Shown: positions 57,645 through 64,000 of the stretch, one piece after another
How the letters are laid out: the number at the start of each line of letters is the position of its first letter
Position numbering within the stretch: the first letter of the stretch is position 1
Source of the DNA: Novosphingobium aquimarinum
Lineage (GTDB): Bacteria > Pseudomonadota > Alphaproteobacteria > Sphingomonadales > Sphingomonadaceae
Length of the DNA: 64,000 nt
Direction of reading: 5' to 3'
Assembly: GCF_009746585.1 (NCBI RefSeq)
Contig: NZ_WRPO01000006.1
Coordinates: forward strand, 1-64,000
Notes under the pieces: model-generated
Told to the model about the DNA's origin: nothing
The model's input: the letters and a program-made list of their open reading frames with translations, nothing else
The model's database searches: none
Program-made: the position numbers and the translations under genes

Positions 57645-57782
57645 GATGGATCCTGAAACGAGTTCAGGATGACGGATGCGCTGACATCCAATTCATCGTC
57701 ATCCTGAACTTGTTTCAGGATCCATCCCGCAGCACGCTTCGCCCCATAAGGCCAGCGCGCTACGACAAGCTCAGGATGACGG
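57645..57782. repeat. Palindromic intergenic repeat, family A-like composite
   Basis: Three arms: GATGGATCCTGAAACGAGTT near 57645, GTCATCCTGAACTTGTTTCA near 57698, and a partial CAAGCTCAGGATGACGGG near 57765. The last two flank AT-poorer DNA. The element sits between ruvA and ruvB, where a transcript would carry a long hairpin. Confidence 0.85.
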
Positions 57783-62569: not shown

Positions 62570-63277
62570 ATGCTTTTAGACCGCCACACCGGGCTGGCGC
62601 CCTTGCGCGACTTTTTGGAATTTCTGCGCCGGCCGCGCCTGCTCGAGCCGACGGGGTTGCGTCCACCGGGTGCGCTCGCGACCTGGCTCACGTTGCTGGC
62701 GCTGCATCTGGGTGTGCTGCTGCTGGTTGTCATGCCGATGTACGGCGTGTGGTTGACGGTCTTCAAGCTTTCGCCCCCCGATGCCTTCGGCAAGATCGCG
62801 CCCGAGCTTCTGCCCGGCCTTACCGTGCTGCTCGCCCCGCTCGGCGAGGAATTGCTGTTTCGCGGCTGGCAGTCGGGCCGCCCGCGCGCCCTATGGCTGC
62901 TGGGATGCGCGCTTGTCGGCATTGTTGTGCTGGTGTTCGGACAAGGCGCGAACCAGCCGGTGGCGACCGGCCTCGCACTGCTTGCGCTGTTGATGGCCGC
63001 GCCGATCGGCTGGGTACGCCTGCGCGCCCGCGCGACCCCGCGCTGGTTCGCGGCGGCGTTCCCGGCGATCTTCTACGCCGTCGTGGCGCTGTTCGCCGTG
63101 GTCCACTTCGTCAATTACCCGAGCGCCTCGCTGCTTGGCCTGCCGCTGTTGCTGCCGCAGCTTTGGGGCGCGCTGGTGCTCGGCTATGTCCGCCAGCGGA
63201 TCGGGTTGATCGGCGCGATCCTCGACCACGCCGTCGCCAACGCGGTAGTGCTGGGCCTGGCGATGCTGGGCGGGTGA
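62570..63277 (+). CDS. CPBP-family intramembrane metalloprotease
   Basis: A 235-residue membrane protein with about six spans. The CPBP (Abi/CAAX-protease-like) motifs are E-E-x-x-x-R in GEELLFRGW (about residue 90), the His in VVHFVNYPSA, and the His in ILDHAVANAVVLG. Members process prenylated or peptide substrates or take part in immunity to bacteriocins; the role here is unknown. The Met at 62570 has GGGA 6 bases upstream; an ATG at 62564 is also possible. Confidence 0.88.
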   Translation: MLLDRHTGLAPLRDFLEFLRRPRLLEPTGLRPPGALATWLTLLALHLGVLLLVVMPMYGVWLTVFKLSPPDAFGKIAPELLPGLTVLLAPLGEELLFRGWQSGRPRALWLLGCALVGIVVLVFGQGANQPVATGLALLALLMAAPIGWVRLRARATPRWFAAAFPAIFYAVVALFAVVHFVNYPSASLLGLPLLLPQLWGALVLGYVRQRIGLIGAILDHAVANAVVLGLAMLGG

Positions 63278-63394
63278 GCCGATCGCAGCTCGCCTCTCCC
63301 CAGTATCCACAGGCTGGGGCTTTGTCCGAATCGCCCAGGCTCGCTAACAGCGCGGCCTTATCGATTCTCACGAGACATCCGGAGCACCCGTACC

Positions 63395-63637
63395 ATGGCC
63401 GATGCCGAGCCGACCGATGACCGCCTGCGCCTGCTGATCGAGCGCGTCGAACGCCTCGAGGAAGAGAAGAAGGGCATCGCCGACGACATCAGAGACGTCT
63501 ACGGCGAAGCCAAGGCGGTCGGCTACGACGTCAAGATCATGCGCCAGATCGTGCGCCTCAGGAAAATGAACCCCGACGACCGCCGCGAAATGGAAATGGT
63601 GCTGGACACCTACAAGGCAGCGCTCGGCCTGGGCTGA
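63395..63637 (+). CDS. gapR: DUF2312 / GapR-family DNA-binding protein
   Basis: A 80-residue protein matching GapR, an alphaproteobacterial nucleoid protein that binds AT-rich, overtwisted DNA and assists topoisomerases. The family start ([51 protein letters not shown]) is unmistakable, with a coiled coil at residues 10-40 and the basic DNA-contact region after it. It is a short stand-alone gene. An unusually long hairpin lies downstream. Confidence 0.93.
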
Positions 63638-63691
63638 GGATTCGGTCGGCTAGAGTCTTTTTGGTTGGCAACCTGCATCCGCAGATTGCCA

Positions 63692-63776
63692 GCGGCACCG
63701 GCCCACGCCCCCACCCGACCTCCCATCGGTAGTATACTTGAGTGGGAGGTCGGGTGGGGGCGTGGGCCGGTGCCGC
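63692..63776. repeat. Perfect 34-bp inverted repeat with 17-base loop
   Basis: Bases 63692-63725 are exactly complementary to 63743-63776. The loop TCGGTAGTATACTTGAG contains the palindrome AGTATACT. The stem is GC-rich. It is followed by another hairpin, GGTTTCGAC/GTCGAAACC at 63780-63788 and 63793-63801. Both lie between the converging gapR and DUF1244 genes. Neither carries a typical T-tract. Confidence 0.97.
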
Positions 63777-63834
63777 CAAGGTTTCGACGGATGTCGAAAC
63801 CGCACTAAATCAACGCGGACCGCACCAATCAAAC

Positions 63835-64000
63835 TCAGTGCGTTCCGCCGTTCTTCTTCAGGCTCTCTTCCATTCGCGCGATCTGCTCGGGCGTAGCCTC
63901 CGACTGGTGCTTGTCCTTCCATTCGGCGAACGGCATGCCGTGGATCAGCGCGCGCGCGTCCATCTTGTCGCCTTCGTAGCCGGCATCGCGGATCCAGTCG
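63835..64000 (-). CDS. DUF1244 domain protein (partial, runs off the window)
   Basis: The C-terminal 54 residues of a protein truncated by the right edge. The visible block DWIRDAGYEGDKMDARALIH, GMPFAEWKDKHQSEATPEQI and KKNGGTH matches the end of DUF1244 proteins (Y-x-x-W-K/Q-x-K-x-Q-x-E-A-T/S-P-E-Q), conserved in alphaproteobacteria and of unknown function. The N-terminus lies beyond 64000. Confidence 0.85.
   Translation of the reverse strand, partial: DWIRDAGYEGDKMDARALIHGMPFAEWKDKHQSEATPEQIARMEESLKKNGGTH

Follow-up and report, generated by a model that had tools for sequence, protein, structure and literature searches.

A long perfect hairpin downstream of gapR in Novosphingobium aquimarinum is the core of a dispersed sphingomonad repeat, very probably a MITE family moved by IS5-family transposases

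A perfect hairpin between gapR and a DUF1244 gene of Novosphingobium aquimarinum proved to be the core of a dispersed repeat. Very probably, this repeat is a MITE family whose units are moved by the IS5-family DDE transposase of a resident insertion sequence (IS), insert at TNA, and are mostly kept behind stop codons. A clean insertion found in a pair of relatives, together with IS5-like ends, leads to this assignment. For the copy in the window (the 64,000-nt stretch of contig NZ_WRPO01000006.1 analyzed here), membership rests on the relatives because this copy has no target duplication. The units are short (~130 to 185 bp), noncoding, and multicopy, with 13 copies in this genome, and the family has inverted terminal motifs. 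A target duplication with an empty site was found in one clean case. A unit and a coresident autonomous IS with nearly the same ends were seen in one relative, G007, and not found in N. aquimarinum itself (G, C, and L numbers are our handles for genomes, contigs, and loci; G000 is N. aquimarinum).

The first-pass annotation had described a 34-bp stem without mismatches, a 17-nt loop, a second hairpin of 9 bp, and the absence of a T-tract, and all of these points were borne out by reading the sequence. The two 34-nt arms are 100% complementary and 17 nt apart, the loop includes AGTATACT, and no T-tract follows the core stem. The neighboring genes had also been named correctly: gapR matched Pfam GapR_DNA-bd (E = 3.5e-35), and the DUF1244 gene, its frame read past the window edge, was recognized with E = 9.9e-28. 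The left small hairpin, both terminal motifs, and the dispersed-repeat nature of the hairpin had been missed. When perfect arms with loops of ≤30 nt were compared, the next longest inverted repeat in the 64-kb window had 16-bp arms, so the 34-bp hairpin is not a product of chance. Further perfect inverted repeats of the window lie at positions 8 to 68 (16-bp arms) and 57661 to 57710 (14-bp arms).

The unit as a whole (Table 1) spans positions ~63653 to 63836 and occupies 182 of the 197 nt that separate the convergent gapR and DUF1244 stop codons (gap, 63638 to 63834). In its predicted RNA fold, a short stem closes the structure and a hairpin lies on either side of the core stem. The ends of this copy are degenerate, and the flanking trinucleotides (CTA on the left and AGT on the right) do not match.

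Table 1. Features of the window copy and IS5-type elements of related genomes
Feature	Position or genome	Strand	Remarks
gapR	63395..63637	+	stops 15 nt short of window unit
Left terminal motif GAGTCTTTTTGG, degenerate TIR	63653..63664	+	matches inward-facing GAGNCT / GTTTG motifs of other copies
Left small hairpin GGCAACCTGC-ATCC-GCAGATTGCC, one mismatch	63667..63690	.	same module class flanks other N. aquimarinum cores
Core palindrome, left arm, 34 nt	63692..63725	.
Core loop TCGGTAGTATACTTGAG	63726..63742	.
Core palindrome, right arm, 34 nt	63743..63776	.
Right small hairpin GGTTTCGAC-GGAT-GTCGAAACC, 9-bp stem, GGAT loop	63780..63801	.
Degenerate partial second module, ending CGCGGACCGCA	63802..63824	.	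by eye like GGTGCGGTCCGC modules of other N. aquimarinum copies
Right terminal motif, reverse complement GAGTTTGATTGG	63825..63836	-	9/12 identical to left motif
DUF1244 gene, 3' part, convergent	63835..64000	-	stop codon 63835-63837 overlaps unit end
IS5-type element, 905 bp	G007		ends GAG(G/T)CTGTTTGGAAAATC, flanks TTA
Four IS5-type elements	G005		ends GAGGCCGTTTCGAA
Six IS5-type elements	G005		ends GAGCCCGATTCAAA
IS5-type element L260	G014		GAG-type/GTG-type set, identical 3-nt flanks
IS5-type element L265	G002		ends GAG(T/C)CCGTTTGAGAATG, flanks unlike
IS5-type element L253	G014		other ends, CTAG

A search of the genome for further copies, which the first-pass annotation had suggested, identified the hairpin as the core of a repeat. 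The DNA search gave 34 matches (palindromes were counted on both strands) at 14 core places. Two of these places, at the termini of contigs C9 and C15, have a 52-nt overlap and were counted as a single copy that the assembler had broken, which leaves 13 distinct copies. Over 111 nt, left hairpin included, the window copy and the one on C11 are 99% identical, which points to recent spread. Among 41 genomes, the repeat was matched in 20 (N. aquimarinum included): 18 of the 25 genomes from the genus had it, as did 2 of the 16 from elsewhere in Sphingomonadales, an order of soil and water bacteria. When the species collection was scanned for the pattern, at least 118 stretches matched. Among the matches listed were Novosphingobium, Sphingomonas, Sphingopyxis, Sphingobium, Parasphingopyxis, Hephaestia, and Altererythrobacter, plus order-level or vaguer names; the titles among these matches were all Sphingomonadales except for a few "bacterium" or "Proteobacteria bacterium" records. 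Three sphingomonad plasmid records had a match, and no phage record did at the sensitivity of that search. The gap between gapR and DUF1244, which had been proposed for comparison among relatives, carried a unit at only 2 of 26 readable gapR loci (30 were fetched), those of N. aquimarinum and G007, and the right-hand sequence of the G007 unit is unlike that of the window copy. G062, G064, and G073 had five gapR-like matches each, and the other genomes searched had 0 to 3.

A typical unit of the family consists of an inward-facing terminal motif, a small hairpin, a palindromic core of 80 to 90 nt, a second small hairpin, and a second inward-facing terminal motif. We counted these parts at the 276 ends of 138 units. 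Inward-facing GTTTG occurred 30 to 39 nt outside the core at 60 ends (2 on the opposite strand), GAGNCT at 40 to 49 nt at 24 ends (1 on the opposite strand), and TTTGTCAGA at 30 to 39 nt at 13 ends (0 on the opposite strand); GAGNCT on the opposite strand had a peak of its own, with 12 occurrences at 10 to 19 nt. Any of the listed terminal motifs was found at 20 to 62 nt at 117 of the 276 ends versus 8, so over half of the ends have none of them. Small hairpins (stem, ≥7) were present no farther than 40 nt from the core at 134 ends, compared with 4 at 120 to 160 nt, and 48 of the 138 units had a small hairpin on both sides. The stems of the small hairpins vary between copies of one genome but remain paired. 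In N. aquimarinum the pattern GGTGCG...CATCCG occurred 14 times, 8 of them beside a core; the remaining 6 look like what chance would give (5 with the reversed pattern as a control). When 140 units were scored with short end consensuses, 23 had both ends, 59 had one, and 58 had none; the same scoring of flanks read backward gave 6 with both and 53 with one, so that single ends are at chance level.

The modules that frame the core differ among the bacteria. GAGYCTGTTTG modules were found in Novosphingobium and Sphingomonas, TTTGTCAGA modules in Parasphingopyxis, TTTCAGC modules in some Sphingomonas, and GAGTCTTT...TTTGGTGCG modules in N. aquimarinum and N. panipatense. One tentative reading, which we think has perhaps a third of a chance at best, is that a single 80- to 90-nt core swaps terminus-plus-hairpin modules and so hitchhikes on whichever transposase is present, with arm-to-arm copying maintaining the near-perfect palindrome; the repeat would then be a modular, self-repairing parasite. 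A constant core in changing modules could also mark an old family whose ends drift faster than its core.

Several composite or reduced structures were also seen. A composite recurs at L009, L012, and L016 in N. aquimarinum and at L074 and L083 in N. panipatense; it consists of a hairpin or module and the first 10 to 14 nt of a core arm, directly joined to GAGTCTT or GAGTTTG from the next unit, and represents either insertion of one unit into another or a larger unit that these copies share. At L062, L075, L079, L091, L093, L103, L117, and L126 (Sphingomonas and Hephaestia), a side of the core runs into a shared segment around CCAACGATGC...GCATCGCCGG(A/C)ACCTTGG, a second and larger composite. 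A minimal 46-bp unit of G005 (L273:2295-2340) has the order terminal motif, hairpin, terminal motif; it has no core and adjoins an IS5-family element. Contig C23 of N. aquimarinum carries a long hairpin of a different family (L016:540-617, CACCCCGGACTTGATCCGGGGTC type) with nearly perfect 31-nt arms.

The symmetry of the arms was analyzed in 142 distinct core copies, of which 15 were left out for poor arm symmetry (indel or truncation) and 127 kept. On average, 28.9 of 30 positions were paired, versus 26.5 (maximum, 26.9) when the right arms were redealt among copies, and 65 of the 127 cores were perfectly symmetrical; the exclusion of asymmetric copies increases the paired fraction, and changes are inherited among related copies, so that the counts are not of independent events. 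Column 14 was T-A in 84 copies, G-C in 22, and A-T in 14, and column 12 was G-C in 73, A-T in 34, and T-A in 12. Columns 18 to 30 are largely set by the search pattern and have little value as proof. The paired changes point to a mechanism that preserves the symmetry of the palindrome, whether selection acting on the folded strand or copying from arm to arm. At L282 (G064:C79, ~288345 to 288367), compared with L277:3320, the left arm, the loop, and the inner part of the right arm are missing from the G064 core, probably through loss of the palindrome.

Evidence for mobility came from G005 and G064, a close pair with 93 to 97% identity around gapR. In G005, TAA borders each side of a unit of 154 bp, GAGCCCGTTTGG...CAAACAGCCTC (the 154 bp exclude the duplication). 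At the same site, G064 reads CACAGGCG-TAA-GCCC, with a single TAA and no unit, and the flanks are identical at 194 of 200 and 200 of 200 positions. Two other cores of this pair gave no clean empty site; one is a partly lost core, and the other could not be cleanly aligned. For the N. aquimarinum copy C54:220045, we searched seven relatives and read the site in four: three (G016, G012, and G021) have the convergent genes abutting or nearly so, with no unit, and G059 has other DNA at this place. An automatic scan for matching 3-nt target duplications found 4 among 26 units at score 8 (mean of 1.02 and maximum of 4 when flanks were re-paired) and 3 among 8 at score 9 (mean of 0.77 and maximum of 3). 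Matching duplications detected in this way are rare and not clearly above chance. The matches were TAA (L045 and L178) and TGA (L100 and L166); TCA at L183 was read by eye. A different hairpin repeat of ~100 bp (CGCGAAGGCGGGG type) lies at L277:10180-10295 in G005; it has dozens of matches in G007 and is missing at the G064 site.

A DUF4096 search was positive in 5 of 6 genomes. We scanned 30 IS5-type loci, and 12 had GAG-type ends (one GTG-type) with identical 3-nt flanks, which were TNA in 11 of the 12. Within the IS5 family, the subgroup that duplicates TNA is, we assume, IS1031. Two loci, L256 and L252, were translated, and both matched NCBIfam IS5 transposases. The G007 unit L183 begins GAGCCTGTTTGGAAAAT, which is one base in 17 off either end of the G007 IS (L256). 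In N. aquimarinum, there was a single DUF4096 match and no such ends were found; its own motif, GAGTCTTT...GGTGCG, occurred three times, each time adjoining a core. No IS was recognized when this end motif was searched in five genomes, and in one genome with the Parasphingopyxis motif TTTGTCAGA none of 20 matches formed an inverted pair at IS distance. Because no IS with the local end motif was found in N. aquimarinum, the window copy may be left over from an earlier partner, or the partner may sit in an assembly gap.

To place the copies relative to genes, we used a home-made gene caller, which placed 121 of 162 copies; 24 were too near an end, 14 were inside a called frame, and 3 had no gene. 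The placed copies lay between convergent genes in 39 cases, tandem genes in 66, and divergent genes in 16, compared with 103, 429, and 115 of 647 control gene pairs, so convergent pairs were enriched (39/121 versus 103/647; Fisher P = 6e-5); these figures are rough, as the caller scores the window copy as tandem when it is really convergent and many of the "inside" cases look like starts called too early. An inward stop codon was no more than 50 nt from the core in 95 of 144 cases, and a start codon in 18 of 98. Of the three plasmid records, two have a usable gene table: pNP2-R2 and pSFD01 have one copy each between convergent genes, and a second core of pNP2-R2 begins ~34 nt after a stop codon in a tandem pair.

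Placement bears on the reading that the repeat is not mobile at all but a host functional element under selection, such as a bidirectional terminator, an mRNA 3'-end stabilizer, or a protein site. The excess of convergent neighbors, the stop codons near units, the covarying core arms, and the positions of the three annotated plasmid copies would all suit such an element. Avoidance of promoters and coding DNA would yield the identical placement, however, and the sporadic presence of the unit at gapR loci and among genomes, as well as the relatives' sites without it, count against a host function. In the terminator scan, no T-tract lay behind the core and no match fell on the core stem, so the core is not an intrinsic terminator by that measure; a weak match at 63632 to 63651, in the end of gapR, takes its T-run from the left terminal motif. 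We regard a host element as improbable.

The first-pass annotation had offered a recent REP-like insertion as one possibility. An inserted repeat is supported by the 13 copies, the two sites at which relatives have no unit, and the 99% identical copy, but REP-like in the strict sense did not hold. As a REP/REPIN or a BIME-like palindrome, the repeat would be moved by a RAYT (Y1 transposase), and its small hairpins, intergenic location, and mosaic arrangement do resemble BIMEs. Y1_Tnp (PF01797) was found in 17 of 59 genomes of the genus. Of the 18 genomes of the genus that carry units, four (G010, G019, G020, and G021) have a match and 14, N. aquimarinum among them, do not; as 2 of the 7 unit-free genomes (G001 and G003) also have it, there is no association with the units, and on this ground the REP reading was rejected. 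The IS5-like unit ends and the TAA duplication are of the DDE type and likewise speak against a RAYT, which leaves this origin very unlikely. That the hairpin is an assembly artefact with a false inverted copy has a negligible probability: although the break of another N. aquimarinum copy at two contig ends indicates that the structure troubles assemblers, there are 13 copies with differing flanks, and a complete plasmid record has the same structure. The suggestion of a recombination target found no direct support.

For the MITE family that we favor, the course of events would be as follows. A resident IS would encode an IS5-family DDE transposase that recognizes the unit ends, as their similarity to the IS ends suggests. 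The unit would insert at TNA and duplicate 3 bp, as the TAA duplication at one site indicates. Units would mostly persist right behind stop codons, probably because insertions at other places do harm and the stop codons TAA and TGA are themselves TNA targets. Neighboring transcripts would then include the strong stem in their 3' ends, and it may stabilize or end them.

The analysis brings to light a widespread repeat that occupies gaps behind genes and breaks assemblies. No description of it was found among the titles and abstract starts listed in the literature searches, and four 17-nt core strings did not occur in the literature text searched. As a natural test case, the family could show whether the core of a MITE can exchange its terminal modules, and hence its transposase, and in what way long perfect palindromes are tolerated and perhaps repaired by cells.

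Compared with known systems, the unit is like IS5-family MITEs in being short, noncoding, and present in many copies, with inverted ends like those of the IS5 elements of the genus and a proven 3-bp TAA duplication. It is unlike them in that it consists mostly of a long, often perfect palindrome with exchangeable small hairpins, and its end motifs vary by genus. With REP/REPIN and BIME sequences it shares intergenic hairpin repeats in a mosaic arrangement, but its ends are of the DDE type, and a RAYT is absent from N. aquimarinum and from most unit-bearing genomes of the genus. ERIC and Correia-type repeats, which the unit resembles in general description, are intergenic, palindromic, 100 to 170 bp long, and MITE-like. 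An Rfam scan of positions 62800 to 64000 gave 11 matches at E values up to 1, 10 of them miRNA precursors and all under the gathering score. MITEAba12 is reported to be 111 to 114 bp long with 9-bp duplications, a weak predicted secondary structure, and ISAba12 as its partner (PMC6382973). There too, a MITE was assigned to its IS by shared ends and target duplications; the sphingomonad unit differs in duplicating 3 bp rather than 9 and in having a strong palindrome rather than a weak structure. The repeat, for which no description was found, is of a known kind, the miniature transposons that are mobilized by the enzyme of a different element, and its unusual feature is a constant long palindrome inside changing end modules.
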